A stretch of DNA of 64,000 nt from Streptomyces sp. T12 (lineage in GTDB: Bacteria > Actinomycetota > Actinomycetes > Streptomycetales > Streptomycetaceae). The stretch covers positions 3,596,001 through 3,660,000 of the forward strand of contig NZ_CP117866.1 of NCBI RefSeq assembly GCF_028736035.1, in the 5' to 3' direction. Below are positions 80 to 24,886 of the stretch, piece by piece. Under the pieces are notes generated by a model. It did not search any database, was not told where the DNA came from, and worked only from the letters and a program-made list of their open reading frames with translations. The position numbers were made by a program, and so were the translations under genes. Positions within the stretch are counted from its first letter, which is position 1, and each line of letters starts with the position of its first letter.

Positions 80-1348
80 TCAGATGGGGCGTGCCGTGAT
101 CGGCAGGTGCTTGTAACCGGACACGAACGTCGAGCGCATCCGTACCGGAGTGCCAGCGGACTCGAACCGGTGATACGAGGTCAGCAGCTCTTCGAAGAGG
201 ATCTTCAGGGTGGCGCGGGCGAGTGTGTGACCGACGCAGTAGTGCGGGCCCATGCCGAACGAGAGGTGCCGGTTCGGCTTGCGACGCAGTTGGAACTCGT
301 CGGGATCGGGGAACGCATCCCCGTCTCGGTTCGCCGATCCGAACCAGACGACGAGCGGGTCGCCCTCCTTGACGGTGGTGCCCCGCACCTCGACGTCCCT
401 GGTGGCATGGCGCATGAAGTAGTTCACGGGCGCCGCGAGCCGCAAGGCCTCCTCGACCGCCGACGCGGTGACGCTGATGTCGGCGGCCCACTCGTCGAGC
501 AGTCCGGTCCCGATCTGCTCAGCCATCACGTAGTTGGGCGAGTGCGGAGTCGTCACCGACGCGCCGAGCAGCACGCTGTAGCAGTTGGACATGACCTCGC
601 CGGGCGCCATCGGCCGACCGTCCACCTGGGTGGTCATCAGAACACTGATGAGGTCGTCGCCGAGCTTGCGCTTCCGCTCGCGGTAGATCTCCTGGAAGTA
701 CGCGAACAGCTCCCGGTGCGCGCCGTCCACCGTCGCCACGGCATCGCCGGAGGCGGTGTCCAGATAGTCGGGATCGTGGCCCGCGATCGAGGCGTTGAGC
801 AGGTGGCACAGCCGCGGCCAGTCCTCCCGGGGCAGGTCCATCTGGACCCCGGCCACCGCTACGGGGAGCATGAGCATGGCCTGGGCGAAGTCGAAGGTAC
901 CGCCGTCACCCAGCGGCGCGAACAGCTCGCGCACCAGACCCCGGATCGCCGCGTGCTGCGCCTCCAGCGACTTGGGCGTCAGCGCCTTCTGCAACCGCGC
1001 GCGCATCCCGGTGTGCCGCGGAGGGTCGGTCACCGGAATCTGACGGCCGCCCGCGGGGTCCTGGGTGCCCAGGGTGTCGAGCATCGTTCCGCGCTCGGAC
1101 GTGAACGTCTCGTGGTCGCGCAGGACCCGGTCGGCGTCCTCGTACTTGACCACGGACCAGAAGCCGCGCCGGTCGTCCACCTGCTGCCAGGTGAGCCGAT
1201 CCAGCTCGCGCAAGTGGGCCCAGGTGGCGCGGTAGTCGCCGTCGCTGAACAGCATGGGGTCGGCGACGCCGTACGCCGCCGTGTGGCTCACCGGGCACTT
1301 GCCCACCAGGCGGACGGGCGTCTCGTCGACATCGGTCATCTTCATCAC
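80..1348 (-). CDS. Cytochrome P450, probably acting on a carrier-bound amino acid
   Basis: This 422-residue protein has the class I bacterial P450 layout. The heme-binding loop FGMGPHYCVG puts the thiolate ligand at Cys371, and the ExxR motif is EALR at 300-303. The I-helix oxygen-activation motif reads GASVTT (262-267), so the usual acid before the Thr pair is Val. As I recall, P450s that beta-hydroxylate PCP-bound amino acids (NovI, NikQ, OxyD types) often show such variants. The ATG overlaps the stop of the upstream MbtH-A-PCP gene by 4 bp, so the two are translationally coupled. From that pairing I infer hydroxylation of the aminoacyl group on that PCP. A different oxidation remains possible; the P450 assignment itself is firm. 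Confidence 0.9.
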   Translation of the reverse strand: MMKMTDVDETPVRLVGKCPVSHTAAYGVADPMLFSDGDYRATWAHLRELDRLTWQQVDDRRGFWSVVKYEDADRVLRDHETFTSERGTMLDTLGTQDPAGGRQIPVTDPPRHTGMRARLQKALTPKSLEAQHAAIRGLVRELFAPLGDGGTFDFAQAMLMLPVAVAGVQMDLPREDWPRLCHLLNASIAGHDPDYLDTASGDAVATVDGAHRELFAYFQEIYRERKRKLGDDLISVLMTTQVDGRPMAPGEVMSNCYSVLLGASVTTPHSPNYVMAEQIGTGLLDEWAADISVTASAVEEALRLAAPVNYFMRHATRDVEVRGTTVKEGDPLVVWFGSANRDGDAFPDPDEFQLRRKPNRHLSFGMGPHYCVGHTLARATLKILFEELLTSYHRFESAGTPVRMRSTFVSGYKHLPITARPI

Positions 1349-3348
1349 CCTTGTCCGGCCTCGACCGCAGCACTGTCCAGCCGCCGCGAGACCTCTTCGG
1401 CCAAAGCCTCGATCGTGGGATTCAGGAACAAAGTACGGGCGGACATGGCCACCTTGAACCGACTCTCCAGCGCGGCCAACAGCTCGGCCGCGAGCAGCGA
1501 ATGCCCGCCCAGCTCGAAGAAGTCGTCGGTGATGCCGATCGGCTCGATCTCCAGGGCGTCGCTCCAGACCTCCGCCAGCTGCCGCTGGAGATCGGTGGAG
1601 GGCTCGACGTATTCATTCCAGACGTTGCGCGGCATCTTGGCCGCGGGCAGGGCCGAGCGATCGACCTTGCCATTCGGGTTCAGCGGGATGTCCTCGACCG
1701 GGAAGATCCCCCACGGGACGAGGTGCGCGGGCAATGTCTTGTGCAGGTAGTCGCGCAACTCGTTGCCCAGGGTGGTCGCTTCGTCCGCCAGGAGCTCGCC
1801 GACGGCGACGGTGGCGATGAGCCGGGCGTCGCCTGCGCCGTCGGTGTGGGCGAGCACCACGGCCCGCTGCACCTTCGGATGGGACATCAGTTCCATCTCC
1901 ACCGTGCTCGGCTCGACGCGGTAGCCGCGGATCTTGAGCTGCCGGTCGGCACGGCCCAGGAAGTCGAGGTCGCCGGAGTCGGTGGCGACCACGAGATCGC
2001 CGGTACGGTACATCCGGGCGCCGGGCCTGGAGGGATCGATGTCGGCGACGAACTTCTCCGCGGTGGCCACCGGCCTGCGCAGGTAGCCGGTGGCGACTCC
2101 GGGCCCGCCGACCCAGAGCTCGCCGACCTCGCCCGGCTTCACCGGCCGGAGCGTGTCGTCGAGGATCATGGTCGTAGTGCCTTCGATGGCCCGTCCGATC
2201 GGCACCCGGGAACCGCTGGGCGCCGTGCGCGACGTCCAGCAGGTCGTGTACGTCGTGTTCTCGGTCGGGCCGTACCCGTTGGTGAAGATCAGGTGCGGGT
2301 GTGCTTCCAGGAGCTGCCGGACGTGCGTCGGCGACAGGACGTCTCCGCCGGCCAGGAGGTGACGGACCCCACCGAGGCCGTCGAGATGGTGGTCGACGAT
2401 CTTGTGGAAGAGTCCTGTGGTGAGCCACAGGACGGTGATGCCCTCGTTCTGTACCGTGGCGATGAGCTCGCTGAAATCGGCGTGGCCGGTGCTGGCCAGC
2501 GCGAGCCGGTTGCCGCGCACCAGCGGGGTCCAGATCTCGAAGGTGGAGACGTCGAACCCGACACGGGTGAGCTGCAGGAAGACGTCCTCAGGCTGGACAT
2601 CGATCCAATCGGGCTTGTCGATCAGCCGGAAGACCGCGCGGTGCGGCACCACGACGCCCTTGGGCTCGCCGGTGGACCCCGAGGTGTAGCAGACGTACAT
2701 AGGAGTGTCCGCCGTGATCGGCGTCTCGTCGGCCGGCTCCGGCGAGAACCGGTCGGCGGTCTCGTCGTCGACGCACAGGATCTGGCCGATCTCCGGGACC
2801 GCGTCCGCCGTCTCGCGGGTGACGACCGCGAACCGGGCGGCGGAGTCCGCCACGATCCGGCGCCGCAGGTCGGCCGACTCGGTCGGGTCGAGATACAGGT
2901 ACGCCCCACCGGCCTTGAGGACGGCCAGCAGCGTCGTGATGAGCGGTAGCGACCGGCCGAGGACGACGGCGACGACGGATCCGCCACCGACGCCCGCCGA
3001 ACGCAGTCGAGCGGCCAGCAACTCGGCCTGCGCGTCCAGTTCCTCGTAGGTCAGTGCGGTGCCTGCGTGGCTGACCGCCACGTCGTGGGGCGTACGCCTG
3101 GCCTGCTCGGCAACCAGGTTGTGGATAAGCGGCACCGGGTCGTGCTCAGGTGCGGCGCCCCGGGAACTCGCCGGCCGGATGTCGGACCACGTCGATTCGA
3201 TGAACGCATGGCACTCGTCGCGAGAGCCGTCCTCCCGCGCCACCCGCCAGCCGGATGGGCGCTCTAGCTTCGACGGCCACAGTGAGTACTGTTCCTCATC
3301 GTTGACCAGGACCACAAACGTGCCGTTGGGGTTATCAAACTCATTCAA
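1345..3348 (-). CDS. MbtH-adenylation-carrier fusion NRPS protein
   Basis: This protein of about 667 residues starts with an MbtH-like domain (1-61; NPNGTF, SLWP and the DIRP-type ending are visible). An adenylation domain follows (YTSGSTGEPKG core, YGPTE, YRTGD, NGKVDR), then a carrier domain (ELGGHSL). A TTG at 3348 was chosen as start because it gives a normal MbtH N-terminus (MNEFDNPNG) and follows a GAGAAAG stretch; upstream residues look non-coding. Reading the specificity pocket against GrsA gives D-V-F-W-L-G-G-T-Y-K, which resembles valine codes. Together with the adjacent branched-chain aminotransferase and P450, this points to activation, and probably oxidation, of valine or a close analogue. 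MbtH fusions are uncommon; SlgN1 of streptolydigin is a known example. Confidence 0.88.
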   Translation of the reverse strand: MNEFDNPNGTFVVLVNDEEQYSLWPSKLERPSGWRVAREDGSRDECHAFIESTWSDIRPASSRGAAPEHDPVPLIHNLVAEQARRTPHDVAVSHAGTALTYEELDAQAELLAARLRSAGVGGGSVVAVVLGRSLPLITTLLAVLKAGGAYLYLDPTESADLRRRIVADSAARFAVVTRETADAVPEIGQILCVDDETADRFSPEPADETPITADTPMYVCYTSGSTGEPKGVVVPHRAVFRLIDKPDWIDVQPEDVFLQLTRVGFDVSTFEIWTPLVRGNRLALASTGHADFSELIATVQNEGITVLWLTTGLFHKIVDHHLDGLGGVRHLLAGGDVLSPTHVRQLLEAHPHLIFTNGYGPTENTTYTTCWTSRTAPSGSRVPIGRAIEGTTTMILDDTLRPVKPGEVGELWVGGPGVATGYLRRPVATAEKFVADIDPSRPGARMYRTGDLVVATDSGDLDFLGRADRQLKIRGYRVEPSTVEMELMSHPKVQRAVVLAHTDGAGDARLIATVAVGELLADEATTLGNELRDYLHKTLPAHLVPWGIFPVEDIPLNPNGKVDRSALPAAKMPRNVWNEYVEPSTDLQRQLAEVWSDALEIEPIGITDDFFELGGHSLLAAELLAALESRFKVAMSARTLFLNPTIEALAEEVSRRLDSAAVEAGQG

Positions 3349-3391
3349 GTCGGGAGATCTTTCTCTGTCAGTCCGATACGGCCAAACATGG

Positions 3392-4576
3392 TCAGCACAC
3401 GGGGTGCGTCCAACCGAACTCATCTGGGATGCGGCCGTATTGGATACCGAGCAACTCCTCGCGAAGCCGCATGGTGACCGGGCCGGGGCGGCCGTCGCCG
3501 ATCGTCCATCCGCCGTCGGCACCGCGCACCTGTCCGACCGGTGCGATGACCGCCGCGGTCCCGCAGGCGAAGACCTCGGTGATCTGGCCCGTTTCACACT
3601 GCTTGCGCCACTGATCCACCGAGATGCGTCCCTCCTCGCAGTCGAGGCCGAGCCTTCCGGCGAGCTGGAGCAGCGAGCTCCGCGTCACCCCCGGCAGCAG
3701 CGTTCCAGTCAACGCAGGTGTCATCAGCGTCTGAGAGTCACCGGAGCGTTGGACGAAGCAAAGGTTCATCCCGCCCATCTCCTCGACCCACGTGCGCTCG
3801 ACCGCGTCCAGCCAGACGACCTGGTCGCAACCGTTGTCCACGGCGTTCCGCTGGGCCAGGAACGCCGCGGCGTAATTGCCGCCGGCCTTCGCGAATCCGG
3901 TCCCACCGGGCGCGGCGCGGCTGTATTCCTCGGACAGCCAGACGGACAGCGCCGACGGCCCGGTGCGCCCGCGAAAGTACCCGGGCGCCGGGCTGGCGAT
4001 CACACAGAACAGATAGCTGTTCGACGGAAGGGTGAATCCCAGCGTCGGCTGGGTCGCGATCATCATCGGCCGCAGATACAGGCTGTTGCCCTCGCCGTCC
4101 GGCACCCATTGGCGATCCTGCCGGACGAGCAGTTCAACGGCGTGGACGAACGTCTCCACCGGGATCTCCGGCATCGCGAGCCGACGGGCGGAGGCGTTGA
4201 AACGGGCGGCGTTGCGCTCCGGCCGGAAGAGGGCGATGGACCCACCTTCCTGACGGTACGCCTTCATCCCCTCGAAGATCTCCTGCCCATAGTGGAAGAC
4301 CGACGCCGACGGCGGCAGGGAGATGGGCTGAAAGGCCTCGACCCGTCCGTCGTGCCACCCGCGCTCCTCATCCCAGCGCAGAGTGATCATGTGATCGGTG
4401 AACACCTGGCCGAACGCAGCAGTGTCGAGAGCCGCGCGGCGCTCCGCCTCGGGCGCCGGCTTCCGGTTCGGCCTGATCTCGAAGTCGACTATGGCTACTG
4501 CCCTCTTCCCTCTTCCAGTGGTTCGTGTGAAACGCTTCTTCCGACTCGACAGTCGCGCAGGCCCGCGCCCTGGCAC
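3392..4576 (-). CDS. Branched-chain amino acid aminotransferase (IlvE family), start uncertain
   Basis: This is a fold-type IV PLP enzyme that interconverts Val, Leu or Ile with their 2-oxo acids. Visible markers are HYGQEIFEGMKAYR, the PLP-lysine region FAKAGGNYAA, WVEEMGGMN and EVFACGTAAV. The first canonical start in frame is GTG at 4576, but it adds 28 residues that do not look like the family. Homology begins at VDFEIRPN, where the frame offers only ATA at 4492, preceded by a strong purine-rich GGAAGAGGGAAGAGGG stretch. Placed between a free carrier gene and the valine-like MbtH-A-PCP gene, it probably supplies or recycles a branched-chain precursor rather than serving core metabolism. 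Confidence 0.85.
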   Translation of the reverse strand: MPGRGPARLSSRKKRFTRTTGRGKRAVAIVDFEIRPNRKPAPEAERRAALDTAAFGQVFTDHMITLRWDEERGWHDGRVEAFQPISLPPSASVFHYGQEIFEGMKAYRQEGGSIALFRPERNAARFNASARRLAMPEIPVETFVHAVELLVRQDRQWVPDGEGNSLYLRPMMIATQPTLGFTLPSNSYLFCVIASPAPGYFRGRTGPSALSVWLSEEYSRAAPGGTGFAKAGGNYAAAFLAQRNAVDNGCDQVVWLDAVERTWVEEMGGMNLCFVQRSGDSQTLMTPALTGTLLPGVTRSSLLQLAGRLGLDCEEGRISVDQWRKQCETGQITEVFACGTAAVIAPVGQVRGADGGWTIGDGRPGPVTMRLREELLGIQYGRIPDEFGWTHPVC

Positions 4577-4606
4577 AGCCCTGACCGCCGATGCGCCGGA
4601 ATCGCG

Positions 4607-4930
4607 CTACCGGCTGCCCTGCTCTGCGGTCCGCTCGTAGAGCACGGCCGACTCCGCCTCGAGCTCGCGCGGGGACGAGAACTTGAACACGAGACTCGCT
4701 GGCGGCCGCCAACCCGAAAGCGCCTCGTAGCGCCGCAACAGCTTCGGGATCAGCAGCGAATGGCCACCCGCCTGGAAGAAGTTGGTGTCCTCGTCGATGT
4801 CGGCGGACTCAAGAACCTCACGAAATGCTTGCAACCAGGCCGAGTCGGAAGATTCTCCACTGTCAGGCTGTGGCGTGCCAGGTGTGAACAAGAGGTCCCC
4901 CAGGTAATGCGAACGATGCCGATCAGGCAT
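4607..4930 (-). CDS. Free-standing peptidyl carrier protein
   Basis: The 107-residue protein has one carrier domain with phosphopantetheine site AGGHSLL (Ser58), preceded by an about 30-residue N-terminal extension. It is the first gene of a minus-strand unit (carrier, aminotransferase, MbtH-A-PCP, P450). It has no adenylation domain of its own, so it must be loaded in trans or accept an acyl group from a condensation domain. It could be the acceptor for one of the discrete C domains or a site for tailoring; neither can be decided from sequence. Confidence 0.82.
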   Translation of the reverse strand: MPDRHRSHYLGDLLFTPGTPQPDSGESSDSAWLQAFREVLESADIDEDTNFFQAGGHSLLIPKLLRRYEALSGWRPPASLVFKFSSPRELEAESAVLYERTAEQGSR

Positions 4931-5159
4931 TTCGAAAGGTGGTCGGAGGGGATGGTGGAGCAGTCTGGAACGACGCTTTAGCAGTCAGTCACCAGGACTG
5001 AAGGTTGAGGCTATGGCACCGACCGGACGCGTACGTACTGGCACCAGTCAGGGTCTCCTCCGAGTGCTGAACTCCTGGCAACGGGCCGCACCGGATCCCG
5101 GACGGAGTTCCCCGGCCGGTTTACTCCGGGCGAGACGGACCTAAGACTCTTGAGCCGAC

Positions 5160-5517
5160 CAGGGGAACCCTCCACTCCTGGGTCTGGCAGTTGGCCGGCC
5201 GCGATGCGCCCGATGCAGGCGGGACGGTGACCGTCGATCTGGATGGGGTGCTGGTGATCGCACACTCGCACAAGCAGGACGCCGCCCCGACCTGGAAGCG
5301 GACCTACGGCCGTCACCGGCGCGGACGGCGGACGCTGATCCGCACCGATTCGTCCTATTCGGTCGGCATGGTGATCCTGGACGGCCGGCCGCCGGGGATG
5401 CGGCTCATCGTCCGGAAGGAACGACCGCACCCAGGAGCCCAGTTGAGGCTCACCGACGCGGACGGCATGCGGCTCACGGACCAGAACCTACCCGTCGTCA
5501 AACCCTGTCACCAATGA
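5160..5517 (+). mobile_element. IS1380-family transposase remnant with internal deletion
   Basis: The frame contains the IS1380-type catalytic-Asp block (TVDLDGVLVIAHSHKQDA, then WKRTYG). It jumps directly to the C-terminal block (PPGMRLIVRKERPHPGAQL, then LTDADG). Several hundred residues that normally lie between are gone, and there is no intact start. It lies in the 1.2-kb gap between two divergent biosynthetic units. Apart from this remnant and the inverted repeat at 5788-5861, I see no gene between 4931 and 6146. Confidence 0.75.
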
Positions 5518-5787: not shown

Positions 5788-5861
5788 AGTCCCCCCCGAT
5801 GCCCAGCACTTGGGGCTATCTGCATGTGGGTAGCCCCAAGTGCTGAGCATCCGGGGGGACT
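5788..5861. repeat. 31-bp near-perfect inverted repeat
   Basis: Arms at 5788-5818 and 5831-5861 match with two mismatches and flank a 12-base loop, forming a very stable potential hairpin. There is no T-run on either side, so it is not a textbook terminator. Arm length and the neighbouring transposase remnant suggest a trace of a mobile element or a MITE-like unit, but a regulatory role upstream of the gene at 6147 cannot be excluded. Confidence 0.7.
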
Positions 5862-6146: not shown

Positions 6147-8087
6147 TTGCCCACAGCAGCACTTAAGACCGTCGTCCATGACGTCTTCCACCGCCCCATG
6201 CACGTGGATGAGGCCTCAGCCGACGCGCTCGCCGCGTTGCGCCGGTCCCGACGCGACGCTCTGCTCGAACGGGCTCGGTGCGAGCACCTGGGCCAGGTGC
6301 CGTGGAGCACTCGTGCCTTCCCGGTGCTCGCCGCGCTCGCGCCGGTGATGACGTCGCCCGTGGGTGAGATCACGTACCCCGGCGACCCGATGTGCCTGTA
6401 CGCGGCGCTCAGCGTCGTCGTCGACAGCGCCCTGAAGTCGGCCCGGAACGCGGCAGACGGCAACGAGGACTTGCCGTTCACGGACTTGTGTCCTGACTGG
6501 CAATGTCGCCCGAGTAAAGAGCGGCGGCTGTCCGCGCGGCACGGGCTACGCGCCGAGCGGGATATGGAGAGCACCCCCGACAGTGCCGTCTTCGACCCCC
6601 GGGTGTGGGACGAGCAGGCCCGCAACGACCTGCGGGCGGTTACTCGGCGGTTACGCCCGAAGGTCTTCCTTGTCAGCACGGTCTCTCCGGGACACCGCTA
6701 CGCCTTGGAGATGGCCCGTCTGGTCAAGGAGGAGGCGCCCGACTGTCTCGTAGTGTTCGGGGGACGGCACATGGACGAGACCATGCGCTATGCCCCTGCG
6801 GACCGGTCCCTCAGCCTGGAGTACAGCAGCACGCTGCGCGCTATCGACGAGGGCCGTGCCGAGCCGGTCGTGGACTTCTGCGTCGGGGGCGAGGGTTACT
6901 TCGCGCTCGACCTGTTGATGAAGGCGGTCGCCCTGGCGATGGACCTTGACCGTACCCGGGCTCGCGTCCGCGACGTTGTCGAGATGCTGTCCCTGCTCGG
7001 TGCCGCGGGGCTGCGCCTGCCGGGCAGCTCGCTGCTGTGCGCGCGGGACGAGGACGCTCTGCACGCCTTCCCTGTCAGAGGTGAGAAGTACGATCTGGCC
7101 CAACTTCCGTCCCCGTACCAGGGTTTCGCCGTCCGCGCCCGTTTCCCCGTCTTCCCGCTGCCCGACGGCAGCCCCGCCCGCACGGCTCACATGACCGTGA
7201 CCAACGCCTGCCCCTACCACTGCGACTTCTGCTCCGAGTCGGCCCTCGTGGTCGGCGGACTCAAGCGCTTCGGTGCCTCACCGGCCGAGGCCGCCCTTGA
7301 GCGGGTGTGCGAGTACGTCAGCTACGGCGCCGCGGCGGTCTTCTTCGACGACTCCATCTTCTGGGCCGGCACGTTCCGGGCCATCCACGAGTTCTGCGAG
7401 GTGCTGCGCGCGGCCCGTACCGCGCCGTCGCCTGAGCAGCTACCCGAGCGCTGCCGCCGGTGGATCACCGGGGACGACGACTGGCAGCGTCTGCGTGACC
7501 TGCAGTTCGGCTGCCAGGTGACCGCCGATCTGCTCACCACGCTGCACGGCGAGAGCGAGGTGCGCGCGCTGCTGTCCACCCTGCGCGAGGCGGGCTGCAC
7601 TTACCTCTACATGGGCATCGAGAGCATGTCGAGCGAAGTCATGGAGCACGTCCACAAGAACCTCCGCCGCACCATCGACCTGCCGTGGAAGAAGAAGGTC
7701 CGCACTGCCCTGGAGCGGATACGGGAGGCCGGCATACCCGTCGGTACCTCCGTGCTGTTCGGTCTGGAGGGCGAGAACCGCCGGACGATCGAGGAGACCG
7801 TCGAGGAGGTGGGGCAGCTCGTCGACGACGGCCTCGTCATGCTGGCCAGTCCCAATATCCTCACCTACCACCCGGCCACCCGGATCACGCGAGACCACGG
7901 CATGCAGGACCAGCTCGACTACCACTCCCCGGACGTCGACAACCGGCCGCCGTACATCTACTTCGAGGAAGCCTTCCCCGGCGTCGTCTCACGCCGTCTG
8001 TCCGAGGACGACATCTGGTTCATCCATGACGCGACCGACAAACGCTGGGGCACCACCCGCAACTCCGCCGAGCTCGCACTCCCGTAA
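6147..8087 (+). CDS. Cobalamin-type radical SAM enzyme
   Basis: The 646-residue protein has a flavodoxin-like B12-binding-type region (about 165-300; SPGHRYALEMARLVKEEAP, then VVFGGRH) followed by a radical SAM core with CxxxCxxC at Cys355, 359 and 362 (NACPYHCDFC). The classic DxHxxG cobalamin-ligand motif was not seen, so base-off binding is doubtful, as in TsrM-like enzymes. TTG at 6147 was chosen because GAGAGG lies 7 bases upstream. A TTA codon occurs at 6651. The family performs radical methylations, ring rearrangements and related chemistry on unactivated carbons. It is followed closely by a DUF364-like gene, likely its partner. The substrate is unknown. Confidence 0.85.
   Translation: MPTAALKTVVHDVFHRPMHVDEASADALAALRRSRRDALLERARCEHLGQVPWSTRAFPVLAALAPVMTSPVGEITYPGDPMCLYAALSVVVDSALKSARNAADGNEDLPFTDLCPDWQCRPSKERRLSARHGLRAERDMESTPDSAVFDPRVWDEQARNDLRAVTRRLRPKVFLVSTVSPGHRYALEMARLVKEEAPDCLVVFGGRHMDETMRYAPADRSLSLEYSSTLRAIDEGRAEPVVDFCVGGEGYFALDLLMKAVALAMDLDRTRARVRDVVEMLSLLGAAGLRLPGSSLLCARDEDALHAFPVRGEKYDLAQLPSPYQGFAVRARFPVFPLPDGSPARTAHMTVTNACPYHCDFCSESALVVGGLKRFGASPAEAALERVCEYVSYGAAAVFFDDSIFWAGTFRAIHEFCEVLRAARTAPSPEQLPERCRRWITGDDDWQRLRDLQFGCQVTADLLTTLHGESEVRALLSTLREAGCTYLYMGIESMSSEVMEHVHKNLRRTIDLPWKKKVRTALERIREAGIPVGTSVLFGLEGENRRTIEETVEEVGQLVDDGLVMLASPNILTYHPATRITRDHGMQDQLDYHSPDVDNRPPYIYFEEAFPGVVSRRLSEDDIWFIHDATDKRWGTTRNSAELALP
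6651..6653 (+). promoter_or_regulatory. In-frame TTA codon (bldA-dependent translation)
   Basis: Codon 169 of the radical SAM gene is TTA. In Streptomyces this rare codon is read by the developmentally controlled bldA leucyl-tRNA. Scanning the other intact genes of the island by eye I found no second in-frame TTA, so this gene may be the developmental gate of the pathway. Confidence 0.7.
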
Positions 8088-8115
8088 CCCGCCGACCGAA
8101 AGAGTCACCACAGAC

Positions 8116-8958
8116 ATGGACGACATCCTGGGGACCTTGCGCGCCGTCCTCGCCGAGCGCAGCCGCGATCTACCCGACGACGACTTCCGGCTGCGCAGCC
8201 TGTGGAGCGTGGACTACCGGTCTCAACCCTCCGACTACGAACGGTTCATGGTCTACAGCTTCGTACTGGCGCAGACCGTCCGGCAGGGCTGTTGTTACGC
8301 CGACTTCGGCTCTGTGAGGATCGGCGAGGGCAGTGACGGGCTCATAGGAAAGGACGCGCGCCTGGTGCGTGGCAGCACCCGAGAAGAGGACATCGCCATC
8401 CTGGACGCCGCGTTCGGCGCGCTGCCCCGCACCCCGGCCGAGGTCCTCACCGTTGACGGGCCGCCGGAGGAGAAGGCGCTGGCCAGGGCGCGGACCGTGG
8501 TCGGTGAGACGATGCGGCTGCTGAACCGCTCGCCAGGCCGTAAGGTCGCCCAGATCGGGGTCATGGGAAATCTGATCCACCACCTCCAGCGTGAGGACGT
8601 CGACCTCACTGCCAGCGACTTCGACCCCCACCTCATCGAGAACGGCATCCTCGGCGTCCCGGTGTACTCGGGTGACGAGAGCGCACGGCTGGTCGCGGAG
8701 AGCGACGTGGCGCTGGTGTGTGGCGAGACGTTGGCCAGCCACACCCTGGAGGAACTGGTGGAGACCGCCGCGGAGCACAACACCCGCCTGGTGGTCTTCG
8801 CCGTGACCGGATGCCACTTCGCGCAGGAGTACTGCGGGACGTTCGGCATCGACACGGTCATGGCCGAACCTCAGCCCCAGTACCTCTTCCAGGGCCCCTC
8901 GACCCTGGAGATCTATCGGAAGGACGCCCTCGGGCGCACCCCCCACGGCCGGCTCTGA
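8116..8958 (+). CDS. DUF364-like Rossmann-fold protein
   Basis: This 280-residue protein has a C-terminal Rossmann-like half (from about residue 140; GRKVAQIGVMGNLIHHL, ASDFDPHLIENGI, LVCGETLASHTLEEL). It resembles the DUF364 family, annotated in Pfam as a putative heavy-metal-chelation domain. The ATG at 8116 is preceded by GAAAGAG; upstream codons overlap the radical SAM gene and are not needed. It starts 28 bases after the radical SAM stop, so the two are probably co-transcribed. Its function is not established. A cofactor- or metal-handling partner of the radical SAM enzyme is one guess, and an enzyme acting on its product is another. Confidence 0.7.
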   Translation: MDDILGTLRAVLAERSRDLPDDDFRLRSLWSVDYRSQPSDYERFMVYSFVLAQTVRQGCCYADFGSVRIGEGSDGLIGKDARLVRGSTREEDIAILDAAFGALPRTPAEVLTVDGPPEEKALARARTVVGETMRLLNRSPGRKVAQIGVMGNLIHHLQREDVDLTASDFDPHLIENGILGVPVYSGDESARLVAESDVALVCGETLASHTLEELVETAAEHNTRLVVFAVTGCHFAQEYCGTFGIDTVMAEPQPQYLFQGPSTLEIYRKDALGRTPHGRL

Positions 8959-8965
8959 ACCTCGC

Positions 8966-9490: not shown

Positions 9491-9560
9491 CGTCGGCCAT
9501 GCCTGATCGATCCCAACAGGCAGTCCCCTGGACCAACATGAGACAAGGACGAGGAGCGCG

Positions 9561-10480: not shown

Positions 10481-10486
10481 ATCAGG

Positions 10487-13109: not shown

Positions 13110-13201
13110 GTGTGCCCCTTTCGGCCACGACAACGGCCCTGCCGACCGCATGAAGAATCTGGTTCAGATTACTGACGCAGGAGCCTCTGAAGTCCTAACA
13201 G

Positions 13202-16233: not shown

Positions 16234-16482
16234 CTAAGCCTGGGAGCTGTCGATGAATGCCGACAGACTCTGCGGCGAGGCGTGCGCGAAGAGGTCGCGC
16301 AGCCGGACGTCCACACCGAGGACGTCGTAGACCTTGCCGACGATCTGAAGGAGGTGCAGGGACGTGCCGCCGCTGTCGAGGAGGTCCGAGGTCTCGTCGA
16401 GTTCCTCCTTCCCAAGGACTTCGCGCCAGATCTCCGTGAGTGCGGCTGTGCGGTCCGAGACGTTCTGGTATTCGGTCTTCAT
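16234..16482 (-). CDS. Free-standing carrier protein
   Basis: The 82-residue single carrier domain has the phosphopantetheine motif DSGGTSL (Ser41). ATG 16482 follows AAAGGAGCT. It lies between the A-T-C synthetase and the thioesterase-like gene. Because the synthetase ends in a condensation domain with no downstream PCP, this protein is the most natural acceptor carrier for that domain. It still needs to be aminoacylated in trans, possibly by the A-PCP protein encoded nearby. Confidence 0.85.
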   Translation of the reverse strand: MKTEYQNVSDRTAALTEIWREVLGKEELDETSDLLDSGGTSLHLLQIVGKVYDVLGVDVRLRDLFAHASPQSLSAFIDSSQA

Positions 16483-16688: not shown

Positions 16689-19600
16689 TCATGCGCCACC
16701 CGGCCCTCCGCTTCCGCTTCGGCTGCCGCTCTCTTCCGTGAGCCGGGCGACCAGACGCGCGCTGATGTTCCGGGCCGTACTCTCGGTCACCAGCGCGGTT
16801 TCGTAGGTGACCCGCACCGTCGACGCGATGCCGTCGTCCGCGAGCAGTTCGACGAGCAGTGGAGCCTGGAGGCGGATGTACGGCAGCTCGATCCCGTGCA
16901 CCGCGCAGCCGTCGAGCTGGAGCTCAGCGCTGGGCGAGTCCTGCACCGCGCCGATGACGTGATACAGCTGCTGCCCTGCCTGCCCGGCGATCCGGGCCGC
17001 CTCGGCGATGGACAGATCGTTGTTGCGCAGGGCGGTGAGAACTGCGCTCTCGGCCCGGGCGGCGGCATCGTGAGCCGTGGTCGTCCGCAGTCTGACGCCC
17101 ATCATGTTGATCAGGCATGCGATGGTGTCCTGCAGAACCGGAGTGGAACGCTGGGATATCGGAATGCCGATCGTGACATCCTCGGCGCCGGTGACCTCGG
17201 ACAGCGTTCCGCCAAGCGCGGCGATGAACAGCGGGAGGAGGCCGCCGCCGATGGAGCGCCGACCCAGGGAGTCCGCCTGCTCCGGCATCAGGGGCACGTC
17301 GATCTTCGTCACGCCGGCTTCCGTGCACAGCGCGGGCGTGACCCACGGTGCAGGGTCGACCGGAAGCTCAGCCAGTTCCTTCGCCCAGTAGTCCCGTTGC
17401 GCCTCGAGATCCGCCAAGCCACGGATCCGCTCCGTCTCCGCGTAGATCTCCGACGGTGCGGCGACCGGATGCGCGAACCGTGGTTCGCGCCCATCGCACC
17501 GCGCGCGGTACGCCTCGGCCAGATCCTCCACGAAGATCCGCTTGGACCATCCGTCGAACGCGATGTGGTGAACGGACATGCCGAAGATCCATCGCTCGGG
17601 CTCCCCGAGCTTGCAGAGCACCGCGCGCCAGACTTCTCCCTCGAACAGGGAAAAGCTCCTGTCGAGTACGGCCCTCAACTGCGGGAGGGCCGTCTCCTCG
17701 TCCGGGGCGTCGATGTGCTCGACCGTGACCGGGCGGTCGGAGCGATTCCACGTAGCCAGGTCCTCGAAGGCGTAACGGCCCTGGAGGAACAGGTGGCGGC
17801 GGTGGACGTCTTGCAGCGCCTCGACGAAACGGTCGATGTCGAGCGCGCCCGCGATGCGCCAGGCCAAGTAGAGGTGATTGTCTGTGTCGTTGCCGTCGAG
17901 GTGCTGCAAGAGGAATCCGGACTGCATCCCGGTCAGCGGTGCCGGCGCGGCTGCGTCCGCCCGGTCCGCGCTGTCCGCTGCGTCTGTCCCGTTTGCACCG
18001 TCCGGCGTCGCTGCGGACTGCTTGGCGATCCAGACCCGCATCTCGTTGACCGACGGGTGGCTGCGCACAACCGATACCGGAATGCTGAGACCGGTCACCT
18101 GGCTCAGGGCCGTGCACAGACGAACCGCGCCCAGCGACGTGCCGCCCAGGTCGAACAGCGAGGCGTCGGGATCCACCGATGTGCCACCGAGAGCCCGGCT
18201 GAACGCAGCCTCGATCGGATCGCTGGGGTTGGCCGCTGCGCGAGCTGCGGTCAGCTCCACGATGGCGGAGTGCAGCGCGACCGTGTCGAGCTTCGCGTTG
18301 CTGGTCAGCGGCAGCGCCGCCAACCGGACGACCGCATCCGGAGCCCACCCCGGAGGCAGGTCGGCCGCCAGCGCAGTCCTCAGGCTCTCCTCGTCGAAGT
18401 GGTCACTGGCCGAGACCACGGCGAGGGCGAGTGACTCCGGCCGGCCGGAGAGGCCGAGCAGCGGGACCACGGCGCACCGCGCGACTCCGTCGAAAGCGGC
18501 TGCCGTCCGCTCGATCTGGCCCGCGTCGATCCGGTGTCCACGGATCTTCAGCTCGCGGTCGCGACGCCCCGCGTACGTGAACACGCCACTGGCGGTTCTG
18601 CTGCCGTAGTCCCCGGTGCGGTACACCCGCAGACGTCGGCCTCCGACGAGCACCTCGGTGAACTTGGCCGCGGTCAACGCCTCGTCACCGAGATATCCGG
18701 GAGACACTCCGTCGCCTGAGATGCACAGCTCCCCGATCTCGTCCGGGCCGCACTCCCGCTCGCCGTCCAACACATGCACGCCGGTGCGGGGTATTGGTCG
18801 GCCCAGCGGGATGGCGCCGCGGGTGTCGTCGAGTGTCACTCGGTGCATCAAAGCGATGCACGTCGACTCGGCGGGGCCGTAGCCGTTGATGAAGGGGATG
18901 TCCGGATGCGCGGCCAGGAAGCGCGCAACATGCGCGGGGGAGAGCGCTTCGCCGCCGGCCATGGCGACGCGCAGGCCTTCGAACGCGGACACGTCCTCGT
19001 CGACCAGAACGTTGAACAGCGAAGAGGTGACGAAGAGGGTGTTGAGGCCGTGGTCCACGATCTCGTGACGTAGCTCGTCGGGCGTGAGTGCCCGATGCTT
19101 CCGGAGGAGGGAGGCGCCGCCGCGCAGGAGCGGGCCCCACACCTCGAACGGAAACGCGTCCCAGTTCGAGGAGCCCAGGTGCGCCAGCACGGTCTCCTCG
19201 TCGATGGAGGCGATGCCTTCCCCGGTGAACATGCGCAGGGTCGCTTCGTGCGTCGAGAGCACTGCCTTCGGCTCGCCGGTGCTGCCCGAGGTGAAGAAGA
19301 CCGTCGCGATATCGGTGCCTGCAACGGGGATCGATTTCCAGGCGCGGTCCGCAGAGTCCTCGGAGGGCGTGTCGAAGCCGGGCAACTCGATCTCACGCCG
19401 GAAGCAGCCGCTGGACCCGCCCGGCGCGGCGACCGCGAGGGCGCCGCCGAGAATCTCGTCGATCCGCCGCAGGCGCCGTTCGTTCCACGCCAGATCCATG
19501 ACCGTGTAAGCGGCGCCGAGCTTCAGCACACCGAGGGCTGCGGCGATCAGTTCAGATGATGTCTCCAGCTGAAGGGGGACGATGCTGCCGGCTCGGACCC

Positions 19601-19748
19601 CCTCCGCTGCCAGCCACTCGGCGACGGCGTCGGACCAGGCATCGAGCTGACCCCGACTGACGACCTCATCGCCGTGGATCAGTGCGGGACGCGCAGGATC
19701 CGCCTGAGCAAGGTCATGCAGAACCATATGGATGGACACGGCGCTCAT
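16689..19748 (-). CDS. NRPS with order A-PCP-C
   Basis: The 1019-residue protein has an adenylation domain (about 10-490; FFTSGSTGEPKA, YGPAEST, YRTGDYG, NAKLD), a carrier (about 505-575; LGGTSL) and a C-terminal condensation domain (about 600-1000; intact HHIAFDG). The pocket reads D-A-F-F-M-G-G-C-I-K, related to branched-chain codes but not one I know. The A-first order means its own residue is the donor and the acceptor sits on another protein, so it is likely a chain-initiating module. ATG 19748 has a GAAGGAA stretch upstream. It opens the second minus-strand biosynthetic set. Confidence 0.88.
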   Translation of the reverse strand: MSAVSIHMVLHDLAQADPARPALIHGDEVVSRGQLDAWSDAVAEWLAAEGVRAGSIVPLQLETSSELIAAALGVLKLGAAYTVMDLAWNERRLRRIDEILGGALAVAAPGGSSGCFRREIELPGFDTPSEDSADRAWKSIPVAGTDIATVFFTSGSTGEPKAVLSTHEATLRMFTGEGIASIDEETVLAHLGSSNWDAFPFEVWGPLLRGGASLLRKHRALTPDELRHEIVDHGLNTLFVTSSLFNVLVDEDVSAFEGLRVAMAGGEALSPAHVARFLAAHPDIPFINGYGPAESTCIALMHRVTLDDTRGAIPLGRPIPRTGVHVLDGERECGPDEIGELCISGDGVSPGYLGDEALTAAKFTEVLVGGRRLRVYRTGDYGSRTASGVFTYAGRRDRELKIRGHRIDAGQIERTAAAFDGVARCAVVPLLGLSGRPESLALAVVSASDHFDEESLRTALAADLPPGWAPDAVVRLAALPLTSNAKLDTVALHSAIVELTAARAAANPSDPIEAAFSRALGGTSVDPDASLFDLGGTSLGAVRLCTALSQVTGLSIPVSVVRSHPSVNEMRVWIAKQSAATPDGANGTDAADSADRADAAAPAPLTGMQSGFLLQHLDGNDTDNHLYLAWRIAGALDIDRFVEALQDVHRRHLFLQGRYAFEDLATWNRSDRPVTVEHIDAPDEETALPQLRAVLDRSFSLFEGEVWRAVLCKLGEPERWIFGMSVHHIAFDGWSKRIFVEDLAEAYRARCDGREPRFAHPVAAPSEIYAETERIRGLADLEAQRDYWAKELAELPVDPAPWVTPALCTEAGVTKIDVPLMPEQADSLGRRSIGGGLLPLFIAALGGTLSEVTGAEDVTIGIPISQRSTPVLQDTIACLINMMGVRLRTTTAHDAAARAESAVLTALRNNDLSIAEAARIAGQAGQQLYHVIGAVQDSPSAELQLDGCAVHGIELPYIRLQAPLLVELLADDGIASTVRVTYETALVTESTARNISARLVARLTEESGSRSGSGGPGGA

Positions 19749-20394: not shown

Positions 20395-20600
20395 CATCGC
20401 GGACCTTGGTCACGAATCGCCCGACGGCGGCTTCTGCCCCAGCTTTTTGGCGATCAGGCCCTCGGCCTGCTCATCGGTGATCTTCCGCGGGGCGCCCGAG
20501 CGCGACTTGTCCACCAGCCCCTCAAGCCGGTCGGCGGCGAACCGGGCGCGCCAGCACGGTCTTCGACCGCATCACCAGCGCCTGGCCGGCGATTGACGGC
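20395..20600 (-). mobile_element. IS630-family transposase N-terminal remnant
   Basis: The minus strand reads WRARF-like sequence followed by FAADRLEGLVDKSRSGAPRK and ITDEQAEGLIAKKLGQKP, the helix-turn-helix region of IS630 transposases. A frameshift separates it from upstream IAGQALVMRSKTV. The DDE catalytic part is absent. The following 20600-20905 contains only the MFS gene's upstream region. Confidence 0.7.
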
Positions 20601-20905: not shown

Positions 20906-22114
20906 TTGACGTTCCGTACCTTGACCGGGCTCCCCCCCGCCTTCCGGTGGCTCCTCGCGGGCCGTACGCTGTCGATCTTGGGCAACACCGTTGCACCCAT
21001 CGGACTCGCACTCGCCATCATCGATGCCGGCGGGAGCGCCGCCACGATAGGCATCGTTGTCGGCGCGAGGTCCGCCGGCAACCTGCTGTTTGTTCTGGCT
21101 GGAGGAATCTTCGCCGACCGGTTCCCACGGTCCGTGGTCCTCGAGGGGTCGAGTGCAGCCAGCGCGGTCACACAAGGCGTCGTGGCGTGGTACGTCTTGT
21201 CCGGTGGCAGCTCCTTGGCCCCGCTGACTCTACTGGCCCTGATAAACGGGATCTGTGCGGCGTTCGCGTCCCCGGCCTCGTCGGCGCTACTGCCGCAGAC
21301 CGTCCCGTCCAACATGCGACCCCAGGCCAACGCGGCCATGCGGCTGACCCTGAATCTATGCTCCGTGGCCTCCGGAGCACTCGCGGCGCTATTCCTGCTC
21401 GTAGCCGCCCCTGGCTGGCTAATCGCCTTCGACGCGCTCTGCTTTGCCGTCGCCGGAGTCCTGTTTTCACGGGTCCGGGTCGCAGGCGGCACTGCGTCAA
21501 AGAAGGAATCGCTGATGAGTCAGGTCCGGGGGGGCTGGGCGGCCTTCTCGGAGCAAAAGTGGTTGTGGCAGGCCATCGTCGGCTCAACGTTGATGAACTT
21601 GTGCTTCTCCGGCACCATTCCAGTGCTGGGGCCGATCTTGGCCGAGGAAACCTTCGGCAGTAACCTCTGGGGCCTCGTACTCGGCGCCCAAGTCGGCGGC
21701 TTGACAGTAGCGGCCGTTCTGATCATGAGAAGCGGCCGGCGAATCTCGCTGCGCGCCGGACTCCTGGCGCTTCCCCTCGGCGCCGCGCTGCCGCTCGCCC
21801 TGGGCGTTTATCCGACATTCGCGCTGTTGCTACTGGCCGCGTTCGTCGGAGGCCTGTCGATGGAGGTCTTCGGCACCGTCTGGGAGACGACCCTCCAGGA
21901 CCGGATCGAGCCGGACAAGCTGGGGCGAGTGTATTCGTATGACGCCCTCGGGTCCTTCATCGGCGTACCGCTGGGGCAGGTGTTGGTGGGTCCTGTCAGT
22001 GCTGAACTGACTCCTCGCGCAACCCTGGTCATCGCGGGTGTACTGATGGTCGGCGCGGCTCTGACGATCGCGCGTGCACTCGGCGGCGAACGGGCGACGG
22101 TAAAGGCGGCCTGA
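20906..22114 (+). CDS. MFS exporter
   Basis: The 402-residue protein has about 12 hydrophobic segments and the MFS intracellular loop GGIFADRFPRS after the second helix. TTG at 20906 is used as start because GGAGAAGG stands immediately upstream; no ATG fits the family N-terminus. It resembles enterobactin-exporter-like and macrolide-efflux-type MFS proteins. Its position beside the NRPS genes suggests export of, or self-resistance to, the product. A GNAT-like gene follows 30 bases downstream. Confidence 0.82.
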   Translation: MTFRTLTGLPPAFRWLLAGRTLSILGNTVAPIGLALAIIDAGGSAATIGIVVGARSAGNLLFVLAGGIFADRFPRSVVLEGSSAASAVTQGVVAWYVLSGGSSLAPLTLLALINGICAAFASPASSALLPQTVPSNMRPQANAAMRLTLNLCSVASGALAALFLLVAAPGWLIAFDALCFAVAGVLFSRVRVAGGTASKKESLMSQVRGGWAAFSEQKWLWQAIVGSTLMNLCFSGTIPVLGPILAEETFGSNLWGLVLGAQVGGLTVAAVLIMRSGRRISLRAGLLALPLGAALPLALGVYPTFALLLLAAFVGGLSMEVFGTVWETTLQDRIEPDKLGRVYSYDALGSFIGVPLGQVLVGPVSAELTPRATLVIAGVLMVGAALTIARALGGERATVKAA

Positions 22115-22144
22115 TGTATGCGATGAGATACTGGAGGGCTACGG

Positions 22145-23092
22145 ATGCTGCAGCATGATGAGGGACTGGTCACGGCCACCCTTGCAGCGAACGACCACTT
22201 GGCGTGGAAGGCACTCGAGTGCCGCAAAGACCTGCACGTCGTCAACGTGGCGCCGCCGCCGGCATCCGGCGGCGAGTGGCTGACCGAGGGATTCCGCTTC
22301 CGACCTACCAACGTCCTCTGGCTCGCGGATCCGAAGGGATCCGAAGAGGAATACATCGAGGGGCTGGGGCATAACCCGCGGTACGCCGTGCGAAAGGCAC
22401 TCAGGGATTTCCAGGCCTCCACGATGACGCTTGAGCATGTCGAGAAAATCACGCATGCGCTGGCCGTGGAATGGCTGCCACTCTACCGAGAGTCCCTGGA
22501 CGGCATGGCCTTCGCAACCCCCGTTGTGAACTCGCCGGAAGAGGTGGTGGGCATCGGGCCGGACGTGGAAATGCTGGTGATCCGAGACGCCCACGGAAAC
22601 ATGTGTGCCGGCATGGTTGCGCTCAACGATCACCGCCGCGGTGTCTACACGGCCGGGCTGTACGGCGAACGGAGCGGCCTGCGAAGCCACAACCTCTCCC
22701 GGGTGCTCTATCTCGCCTTGATAAATGTCACCCGGGCCCACGGGATGCCAGTGGTCAGCGCGGGGTGGGAGCCCAACCTGTATGGGCACATCGCCAAGGC
22801 CGGCCTGGCGGCATACAAGCGGTCGTTGGGGTTCCGTCCAGTACCTCGAGCTGCGCTGCGAGCCGACGGTTCCGAAGACGTGCTCACACGTGTGGTGCAT
22901 GACGAGGGGCTGGCTCCACCGGTGGTGTTCTTCGCGTATCCGACCTGGCCGCCGGAGCAAGCCGACCTGTTGGACGTCCGGCTTCGGGCCGTTGTACACC
23001 CCAACACGAACACGCCATTCCAGTTGAGTGCGTTTGGCTCCGATGTTGAGTCATTGTCACTGGCGGCAGCCGACAAGGCGGCGGTGCGCTGA
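22145..23092 (+). CDS. GNAT/BioF2-like acyl- or aminoacyl-transferase
   Basis: The 315-residue protein has a GNAT-type fold in its second half (EMLVIRDAHGNMCAGMVALN, LYGERSGLRSHNLSRVLY, AGWEPNLYGHIAKAGL), of the group that includes FemAB-like peptidyltransferases and the BioF2 domain. ATG 22145 follows GGAGGG. It is co-directional with the upstream MFS gene. Likely roles are N-acylation for resistance, or tRNA- or CoA-dependent addition of a group to the peptide. No catalytic residue can be assigned by eye. Confidence 0.6.
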   Translation: MLQHDEGLVTATLAANDHLAWKALECRKDLHVVNVAPPPASGGEWLTEGFRFRPTNVLWLADPKGSEEEYIEGLGHNPRYAVRKALRDFQASTMTLEHVEKITHALAVEWLPLYRESLDGMAFATPVVNSPEEVVGIGPDVEMLVIRDAHGNMCAGMVALNDHRRGVYTAGLYGERSGLRSHNLSRVLYLALINVTRAHGMPVVSAGWEPNLYGHIAKAGLAAYKRSLGFRPVPRAALRADGSEDVLTRVVHDEGLAPPVVFFAYPTWPPEQADLLDVRLRAVVHPNTNTPFQLSAFGSDVESLSLAAADKAAVR

Positions 23093-23099
23093 GAGGGCG

Positions 23100-23332: not shown

Positions 23333-23515
23333 GCCATCGCCCGGACGTCATCGCGCCAGCGCGGGGTGGGTGCGGTGAGCCGGCGGACCAGGATCGCGGT
23401 GGATGCCCAGTAGGGGACAGCACCCCCCACGGAAGTATGGGCAATCACACACGCCCGATACCGAACCCTAGGAAACGGGACTTAACGCCCACTCGCAGCG
23501 CCGGAGACCTGTCCC

Positions 23516-24886
23516 ATGTCAGGAGACGCGCGCCAACCCCTCCGTTACCGTCCGCGCATGCCTAGATCCACCCTAGATGTACCGCCGCCTACCCCTCGCA
23601 GCCCGTTCCCTGGCCTGCTCCGGCGAATGGCCCCGCCGTCGCGGACTGCGGGGCGAGTCAGTGCTCAGGCGCTGCTCTACGGGCTGGGCACCGGCAGCTA
23701 CTTCACCACCAACGCAGTCTTTTTCACCAAAGTTGTAGGCCTCTCCGCTGCCGAGGTCGGCCTGGGCCTGACGATTGCCGGAATCGGCGCGTTCTTCGCC
23801 GCTGTGCCGTTGGGCCGGGCCGCTGACCGGGTCGGCCCGAAGGCTGCGTGGGCTGCAGCGTCTCTCGCGGAGGCGGCCTGCTACCTGGCCTACCCGGCGG
23901 TTCGCGGGTTCTCCGCCTACCTGGTGATCGTCATAGCCCTCGGGGTGACCAACGCCGCTGGGACTGCAGGTTATGGCGCGTATGTGCTCAACCTCTACCC
24001 CGACAAGGAGCGGATCGCGGCTGTCGCCTACAACCGAAGTGCAGTGAACGCCGGGTTCACCATCGGCGCGGGACTTGGCGGCCTGGCCCTGGCAACTGGA
24101 AGCGAGACGGCCATCCGGATGCTCCCCTTGTTCGTCGGAGTGGTGATGCTGATCAACTCAGCGGTGATCTACCGACTGCCCAAGGCGGTCAGCCCCGTCC
24201 AGGATCCCACCCAGTCGGAACGGCGCGAGCGTCGGAAGTGGGGTGGCGCGCTGAGCAATCGTCCGTTTCTCGCCATCTCCGTCCTGAGCGGTGTGGTGTC
24301 TACGAACCAGGTAATCCTCTTCGTGGTCATTCCACTCTGGCTGGTGGAGGACACCAACGCGCCTCGGGCGCTCCTAGCAGGACTGCTCGCGACCAACACC
24401 CTAATGACGGTAGCTCTGCAGACCATGACTGCCCGCGGCACCGACACACTGTCAGGCGCGATTCGGGCGACATACCGGAGCGCCGCCTGCTTTGTCGCCT
24501 CCTGCGTGATCACCGCGTTCACTGACGGCAGCGTCGAGTGGCTGACCATCGCTCTGGTTTGGTTGGCGCACATCGTATTGACCGGTGCCGAACTCTTCCA
24601 GGCAGCGGCGGGCTGGGGATTCACGGCGCTCTTGTCCGATCCCGCTCGGCGCGGCGAATACCAGGGCGTACAGCAGGTCGGCCACACGATCGGTAACGTG
24701 TGGGCGCCGGCCGCTTACACCTATCTGGCCATGAACTGGCACATGACGGGCTGGCTGACCATCGCTGCCATCGTCGCCCTTGCAGCCGTCCTCACCCCGT
24801 CCGTGGCCCACGCCGCCGAACGCTCGCTTGGCACGGCGGTTGCCGGAACCGCATCCAGCAATGATCGACTCTGTCGGGAATCTTGA
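23516..24886 (+). CDS. Second MFS transporter
   Basis: The 456-residue protein has about 12 transmembrane segments and the MFS signature PLGRAADRVGPKAAW between helices 2 and 3. Start 23516 has a GGAG stretch 10 bases upstream; ATG 23558 or 23627 would remove a basic, non-conserved leader and are alternatives. It is separated from the first exporter by a GNAT-like gene and an IS-associated fragment. It is the last intact gene before the island's apparent right edge. The substrate is unknown. Confidence 0.8.
   Translation: MSGDARQPLRYRPRMPRSTLDVPPPTPRSPFPGLLRRMAPPSRTAGRVSAQALLYGLGTGSYFTTNAVFFTKVVGLSAAEVGLGLTIAGIGAFFAAVPLGRAADRVGPKAAWAAASLAEAACYLAYPAVRGFSAYLVIVIALGVTNAAGTAGYGAYVLNLYPDKERIAAVAYNRSAVNAGFTIGAGLGGLALATGSETAIRMLPLFVGVVMLINSAVIYRLPKAVSPVQDPTQSERRERRKWGGALSNRPFLAISVLSGVVSTNQVILFVVIPLWLVEDTNAPRALLAGLLATNTLMTVALQTMTARGTDTLSGAIRATYRSAACFVASCVITAFTDGSVEWLTIALVWLAHIVLTGAELFQAAAGWGFTALLSDPARRGEYQGVQQVGHTIGNVWAPAAYTYLAMNWHMTGWLTIAAIVALAAVLTPSVAHAAERSLGTAVAGTASSNDRLCRES

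Follow-up and report, generated by a model that had tools for sequence, protein, structure and literature searches.

A fragmented peptide synthetase island of Streptomyces sp. T12 with an NcmC-type cysteine protein and no ketosynthase nearby

The window analysed here is a stretch of 64,000 nucleotides from Streptomyces sp. T12 (contig NZ_CP117866.1, positions 3,596,001 to 3,660,000; host genome of 11.46 Mb), which belongs to the same genus as S. ferrugineus, and its left part holds a nonribosomal peptide synthetase (NRPS) island built from discrete domains. Pfam and NCBIfam scans assign three adenylation (A), three condensation (C), and five carrier domains to seven proteins (Table 1), with AMP-binding matches in three proteins, Condensation matches in three, and PP-binding matches in five. 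A preliminary description of this DNA had given the same domain counts and spread them over eight proteins, a number that is reached only when a thioesterase-like (TE-like) protein at 15298-16098 is included. Its statement that a single protein (16689-19748) unites A, peptidyl carrier protein (PCP), and C domains holds, and the P450, the aminotransferase, the radical S-adenosylmethionine (SAM) enzyme (rSAM), the DUF364 protein, and the two MFS exporters that it listed are present with open frames. The serine motif is intact in all five carriers, and the A10 lysine is kept in all three A domains. The block extends to the left past the window start with two thioesterase genes on the same (minus) strand; these genes, a CsaA gene, a broken EamA gene, the transposase relics, and an MbtH domain on the first A protein had all escaped the earlier reading.

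The G+C content is 66.7% in positions 1-24886 and 71.6% in the remainder of the window, which would fit a horizontal origin, and the NRPS island was probably acquired in this way. A search of positions 1-30000 with Rfam, at gathering thresholds, returned no match.

The TE-like protein is an alpha/beta-hydrolase with a helical-bundle lid and sequence kinship to NcmC, which profile and fold comparisons place far above any other solved structure. Cys74 is present in all 25 members of the family alignment and Asp98 in 24 of them, and these residues align with Cys89 and Asp116 of NcmC, while His186 aligns with Tyr204. The C-terminal histidine of NcmC is missing, so that the protein is classed as an NcmC homologue or variant, rather than as a proven member. 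NcmC itself has been assayed with a mimic of the N-acetoacetyl-aminoacyl thioester kind. The gene of the window protein and that of the A-PCP protein overlap, and the gene of the free carrier PCP3 is its neighbour.

With this protein as the query, matches at 1e-8 are found in 14 of the 392 genomes of the genus, its own included (the relatives set was kept at E ≤ 1e-50, and the family set at E ≤ 1e-60). Eleven gene contexts, including those of the window and S. ferrugineus (G007), were read, most of them over 40 kb (56 kb in G007, 60 kb in G666, 27.6 kb in G086, and 20 kb in G045); the matches in G211, G261, G273, and G090, and the second match in G359, lie outside this set. A separate or stand-alone A domain with the code DVQFAAHVAK (DIQFAAHVAK in the window) is encoded in six of the eleven (the window, G007, G666, G086, G045, and G059). 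In all three of the relatives scanned by Pfam (G666, G086, and G045), a T-KS-AT protein, which contains a ketosynthase (KS), adjoins the TE-like gene, and a relative of the type II thioesterase (TEII) adjoins the A-PCP gene. One related cyclase cluster (L111:6992-12277) encodes an NRPS protein that matches C, A, and two carrier domains and has a luciferase-like monooxygenase domain embedded in it, with a TylF-type methyltransferase as its neighbour.

The island itself is a KS-free setting for an NcmC-type enzyme, a type that ordinarily operates alongside a PKS supplying a beta-ketoacyl chain. In the window genome, it spans approximately 3,584,000-3,621,000, and the nearest ketoacyl-synthase (PF00109) matches lie at 3,180,369 and 4,841,851, some 400 kb off at the closest. 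In S. ferrugineus, where the island covers approximately 9,525,000-9,559,000, the nearest full KS match is at 9,148,460 (~376 kb), and a short, incomplete one lies at 9,323,941. These absences are based on Pfam matches, as a regular-expression scan missed KS domains that Pfam found.

The cysteine protein may be an aminoacyl shuttle of the CmaE/SyrC kind, which would pass a proline-type residue from the A-PCP protein to a free carrier, with release by a left-hand thioesterase. The overlap with the A-PCP gene and the proximity of PCP3 are consistent with this, as are the lack of a nearby KS, the availability of two other thioesterases, the documented use of such shuttles in fragmented systems, and a histidine position unlike that of NcmC. 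This function is nevertheless unlikely, in that NcmC matches far better than the other solved structures, and the three relatives place the TE-like gene beside a T-KS-AT protein, with a TEII relative at the A-PCP gene as an alternative shuttle. The CmaE-type shuttle was the first choice for the protein until it was demoted by the NcmC profile and fold match.

The presence of a KS in the three relatives and its absence here, together with the transposase relics, including the IS630 relic, and the broken EamA gene, would also be expected if the island were a decayed or rearranged tetramate cluster that had lost its KS, with the cyclase as a relic, or with another type of closure, such as a lactam. 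Such decay is decidedly unlikely, as all the NRPS genes and the cyclase homologue have open frames with their motifs kept, and S. ferrugineus, a second species, has counterparts with 87-97% conservation. The preliminary description had named pseudogenes among its key genes as grounds for its own rejection, and the disruptions found are those of EamA in the window and of the rSAM frame in the S. ferrugineus assembly.

Among the other genomes, one TE-like match, protein IM697_42390 of S. ferrugineus, reaches 94%. Seventeen core genes have 84.6-98.4% protein identity between the two species, and the two left-hand thioesterases are 98% and 96% identical. Collinearity at the DNA level extends from about -11.8 kb to 19.7 kb, with the exporters and the GNAT-like gene following, to 24.9 kb, and is broken at the cassette sites described below, at a gap from about -2.4 to -1.4 kb, and by a 0.9-kb segment in the opposite orientation. 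This synteny implies that the genes are not grouped by chance. In S. ferrugineus, a class II aminoacyl-tRNA-synthetase-like gene (L090:15538-16920; PF00587 at 24.2 bits, under the cut-off), which perhaps encodes an amino acid:carrier ligase, lies between the second thioesterase and DUF364. It is not found at the island of the window, and only a 43% relative is present in the host genome, approximately 5.7 Mb away. A second scattered NRPS/polyketide synthase (PKS) cluster of the host genome (L133/L134; G000:C1:9326001-9356000) has a relative of this putative ligase, separate A and C matches, and a KS match.

The island may belong to a known pathway that went unmatched, given that 26 TE-like proteins are listed besides that of the window, several of them from named Streptomyces. 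This is improbable, in that searches of the literature on S. ferrugineus clusters, Dieckmann cyclases, hydroxyvaline P450 clusters, the code string, and DUF364 with radical SAM, which left most subscription papers outside their reach, returned no cluster matching the window set. The gene set as a whole remains unrecognised, as first described. For its parts the label is only partly right: it does not hold for the TE-like gene, which is of the NcmC type, and is weaker for the P450, which has likely PCP-acting kin. The A-PCP and TE-like genes recur together in other clusters, and the rSAM and DUF364 genes form a separate cassette.

The P450 has the haem motif FGMGPHYCVG and the ExxR motif, and its best match in the PDB is 4l0e (1.3e-65, with 4l0f, 4pwv, and 4pxh), with 3mgx in fourth place (8e-52) and ancestral CYP125 reconstructions between them, in a comparison made by sequence matches. 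By their PDB codes, 4l0e and its companions are taken to be P450sky, and 3mgx to be OxyD. On this reading, the probable substrate of the enzyme is an amino acid attached to a PCP. The A-domain codes are DVFWLGGTYK in the MbtH-A-PCP protein, DAFFMGGCIK in the A-PCP-C protein, and DIQFAAHVAK in the A-PCP protein. Against the consensus codes DAFWIGGTFK for valine and DVQYIAHVVK for proline, the first presumably resembles valine, the second a branched-chain residue (expected to be Val or Ile), and the third proline. The A-PCP protein is a stand-alone didomain with an intact carrier serine, and the left-hand TEII has the serine motif GASMG and belongs to the TEII fold family (PF00975), as aminoacyl shuttles of the LgnA/WS20 type do. 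The aminotransferase scores 474.8 bits with the branched-chain aminotransferase equivalog NF009897 (cut-off 307), and 382.2 bits with TIGR01123.

The rSAM, DUF364, broken EamA, and CsaA genes form a plus-strand cassette (6147-9908) that interrupts the operon, with C1 on one side and PCP1 on the other. These two genes are separated by only 493 bp in S. ferrugineus, with no cassette in the gap, and a CsaA-rSAM-DUF364 set sits beyond the second thioesterase there. The identity between the two sets is 73.1% for DUF364, 61.7% for CsaA, and 73.0% and 64.7% for the two segments of rSAM, the S. ferrugineus assembly having this gene in two different frames. The closest set among the loci is that of S. 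ipomoeae 91-03 (rSAM 83%, DUF364 83%, CsaA 81%), and the rSAM tree pairs the window with this species (support 100/99). A transposase relic lies on either side of the cassette, that of IS1380 on the left being partly common to S. ferrugineus, and a Tn3-family relic on the right. Its own position, identities, and tree indicate a separate history, and the rSAM-DUF364 genes are separately acquired and lie outside the conserved block at that position. The EamA gene, which is intact in S. ipomoeae, is reduced to short frames in the window. The CsaA protein scores 114 bits with TIGR02222 (cut-off 119.65) and 111.6 bits with NF007494, over the cut-off of 109. A 31-nt inverted repeat (5788-5861; arms 94% complementary, 12-nt loop) lies upstream of rSAM, and its exact pattern was found in only three loci, all of them copies of the same place.

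The preliminary description had called the rSAM protein a cobalamin-type enzyme. The radical SAM core matches PF04055 at 53.8 bits and has the CxxxCxxC motif, and the B12-binding domain falls under the Pfam cut-off in the window protein (24.2 versus 32.1 bits), and also in L021. Precomputed Pfam annotation gives this domain (PF02310) for many of the orthologues, and not for the one that is 97% identical, P0013. In the PDB, 9ccb is the single match of the protein, and a weak one (E 0.0069). The structure model of DUF364 is of low quality (pLDDT 61), and its fold matches, mostly chains of pyridoxal phosphate enzymes at low TM-scores, with the DUF364 entry 3l5o among them, were not used.

In the 17 closest of the 45 rSAM loci (L013-L029, at least 47% in the best segment), a DUF364 match adjoins rSAM in five (L013, L018, L019, L021, and L022). 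On a tree of 17 rows, in which the window stands with 16 of these loci, the DUF364 label requires two changes, with five closely related loci that lack DUF364 nested among the carriers. Close DUF364 orthologues occur in three of the 392 genomes, the own genome included, with rSAM adjacent in each, and the 27 distant DUF364 loci contain no rSAM match within about 1.5 kb on each side. The plasmid records yield two distant matches for DUF364 and ten for rSAM (query P0014, best 47.5%). The rSAM-DUF364 pair is a portable unit that accompanies various assembly lines. The neighbours of this pair in L018:6124-9739, and in the corresponding part of L019/L092, are a sodium/proton exchanger, a free PCP, and a protein of 699 aa whose HAD-type matches are weak and under the cut-off.

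The cassette may also be read as an integral tailoring step, for instance one that C-methylates a branched-chain residue and is connected with the aminotransferase. It is found at the same NRPS island in two species, in spite of its separate arrival, and the pair lies near other NRPS or PKS genes in L018, L019, L021, and L022. This is somewhat unlikely, given its different position in the two species, identities of 62-73% versus 85-98%, the broken rSAM frame in S. ferrugineus, and its presence in just two of the eleven TE-like contexts, with no match in the other nine. In S. ipomoeae, moreover, a 21-kb stretch around the cassette shows no match to the NRPS genes of the window, and genes for SAM synthetase, an IF-2B/MtnA-type protein (a phosphoribosyltransferase fusion), ARD, and a phosphorylase follow directly (L013:14524-20410). 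These SAM and methionine-salvage neighbours, seen at this one locus, hint at heavy use of SAM. The formation of azetidine-2-carboxylate from SAM, for the proline-type A domain, was considered on account of these neighbours and dropped, as the methionine-salvage genes occur in only one of the 17 closest rSAM loci (L013).

Four frames are over-extended at their starts (MbtH-A-PCP, C1, rSAM, and DUF364), and the starts in Table 1 (near 3387, 11761, 6147, and 8116, respectively) are placed by homology. An IS630-family transposase relic lies at 20413-20553, between the A-PCP-C and first MFS genes. Relatives of the GNAT-like protein, at 74-89%, also occur in a Micromonospora record and in two further Streptomyces records, and a search of the PDB with this protein returned no match.

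Table 1. Features of the island and its cassette, in window coordinates.
Feature	Position	Strand	Evidence and remarks
5' end of TEII gene; rest left of window, then second thioesterase	1-54	-	L058:5317-6054 and 4571-5431, PF00975
Cytochrome P450	80-1348	-	PF00067; haem and ExxR motifs
MbtH-A-PCP, code DVFWLGGTYK	1345-3387	-	PF03621, PF00501, PF00550
IlvE-type branched-chain aminotransferase (class IV)	3392-4576	-	NF009897, TIGR01123
Free-standing carrier PCP1	4607-4930	-	PF00550; GGHSL
IS1380 transposase relic, left of cassette	5182-5478	not assigned	part also in S. ferrugineus intergenic region
Putative B12-type radical SAM enzyme (cassette)	6147-8087	+	PF04055, CxxxCxxC; PF02310 in many orthologues; start from homologue P0013
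DUF364 protein (cassette)	8116-8958	+	PF04016
Broken EamA transporter relic (cassette)	8906-9487	+	tblastn with S. ipomoeae EamA
CsaA-like tRNA-binding protein (cassette)	9561-9908	+	PF01588, NF007494
Tn3-family transposase relic, right of cassette	10166-10412	not assigned	conceptual frames
Free-standing condensation protein C1, DHIIVDE replacing HHxxxDG	10487-11761	-	PF00668
Divergent condensation protein C2, free-standing, with DHALVDG	11910-13151	-	PF00668, 34 bits
Stand-alone A-PCP didomain, code DIQFAAHVAK	13550-15313	-	PF00501, PF00550
NcmC/TrdC-type cysteine cyclase homologue (TE-like)	15298-16098	-	profile and fold comparison
Free-standing carrier PCP3	16234-16482	-	PF00550; GGTSL
A-PCP-C protein, code DAFFMGGCIK, canonical HHIAFDG	16689-19748	-	Pfam domains and motifs
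MFS exporter 1	20906-22114	+	PF07690; 93% in S. ferrugineus
GNAT-like protein	22145-23092	+	two distant kin with PF13480; 85% in S. ferrugineus
MFS exporter 2	23516-24886	+	PF07690; 88% in S. ferrugineus

The reading favoured here, which is tentative and falls a little short of an even chance, is that of a discrete-domain NRPS island in which a cysteine cyclase releases a small, ring-closed peptide of the tetramate type. It is built on the observed domains and motifs, the synteny, the cyclase homology, the absence of a KS, and the separate history of the cassette. The product is most likely a small ring-closed peptide of branched-chain and proline-type residues, and the short modified peptide anticipated in the preliminary description fits the domain count and codes. 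We infer the substrates, the order of the steps, and the type of ring as follows. The MbtH-A-PCP protein would load a valine-type residue, which the P450 would beta-hydroxylate on the carrier, and the A-PCP-C protein would load another branched-chain residue and join it on. Activation of a proline-type residue would fall to the stand-alone A-PCP protein, with transfer to a free carrier by the TEII, and C1 and C2 would complete the chain. The cyclase homologue would then take the chain onto Cys74 and release it by an intramolecular, Dieckmann-like cyclisation. As there is no KS nearby, the activated carbon would have to come from a coenzyme A-derived acyl starter or from a distant KS. The aminotransferase would adjust the branched-chain precursors, the MFS pair would export the product, and the rSAM-DUF364-CsaA cassette may add an optional, SAM-derived modification.

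A number of observations weigh against this proposal. The two columns that hold the C-terminal histidines in NcmC are free of histidine in all 25 family rows, and with no KS near the island in the window genome or S. ferrugineus, the substrate of a Dieckmann cyclase is unaccounted for. The A-PCP protein with the exact code was not seen in five of the nine other TE-like contexts, and the co-occurrence of the two genes is no proof of a common reaction. The codes were read by hand against GrsA, and the meaning of each is taken from consensus codes. Ancestral CYP125 reconstructions, which are steroid-type P450s, rank second for the P450 (5.5e-63, versus 1.3e-65 for 4l0e), and leave room for a different role, which the enzyme may have. 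Trans-acting A-T (adenylation-thiolation) didomains and TEII shuttles are documented in the literature drawn on for the Dieckmann-cyclase, A-T, and shuttle comparisons (PMC10956176, PMC8748450, PMC7539972). There, the knockout of the TEII gene bpd1 is reported to have had no effect on bripiodionen, so that the TEII shuttle is not general.

The main puzzle is a Dieckmann-type release without a KS. A more specific, and doubtful, version of events is that of a PKS-free NRPS island in which an NcmC-type subfamily, with its catalytic histidine moved to the lid helix (Tyr204 to His), closes a small peptide without a KS in the cluster, the rSAM-DUF364 unit having been inserted twice independently. 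If a cysteine cyclase does act without a KS, assembly lines that make only peptide could close rings through a carbon-carbon bond, and Dieckmann cyclases would be seen to have a distinct second catalytic layout. As a defined unit of two genes, rSAM and DUF364 lie close to several NRPS/PKS clusters that are unrelated to one another, and the activity of the pair would account for one step in more than one pathway. The same island with different cassettes in two species represents a natural experiment on the contribution of the cassette.

A number of known systems resemble parts of the island. The beta-hydroxylases P450sky (skyllamycin) and OxyD (balhimycin) are the first and fourth PDB matches of the window P450, which, like them, has an adjoining PCP partner gene, whereas the partner A domain in the window reads as valine-type, and the CYP125 reconstructions score between the two. 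Nikkomycin biosynthesis also has an MbtH-A-PCP protein (NikP1) adjoining a P450 (NikQ), as in the window, although NikP1 loads histidine, and the remainder of that cluster is unlike the window. Cobalamin-dependent radical SAM enzymes share the core and the CxxxCxxC motif with the window rSAM, and many of its orthologues match the B12 domain, whereas its matches to characterised members are weak and confined to NCBIfam, and it is often paired with DUF364. Trans-acting A-T proteins, compared here by size and description only, include BpdD, which, like the window didomain, stands alone, has 587 aa, and shares its cluster (bripiodionen) with a Dieckmann cyclase, and WS23/Cal23 of WS9326A. In the papers cited above, Asn is the residue that the authors predict for BpdD, and Asn loading by Cal23 is shown by assay, in contrast with the proline-type code DIQFAAHVAK, so that the proline reading of the window protein is only tentative. 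The shuttles CmaE and SyrC perform the aminoacyl transfer that the alternative function of the cysteine protein would need, and would resemble it in role. The closest counterparts of this protein are the discrete Dieckmann cyclases TrdC, NcmC, and BpdE (tirandamycin, nocamycin, and bripiodionen), with which it shares its fold, its size (266 aa, versus 267 aa in BpdE), the cysteine nucleophile, and the aspartate aligned with Asp116 of NcmC, and from which it differs in having His186 in the place of Tyr204, no histidine at the C-terminal columns, and an island with no PKS in its vicinity.

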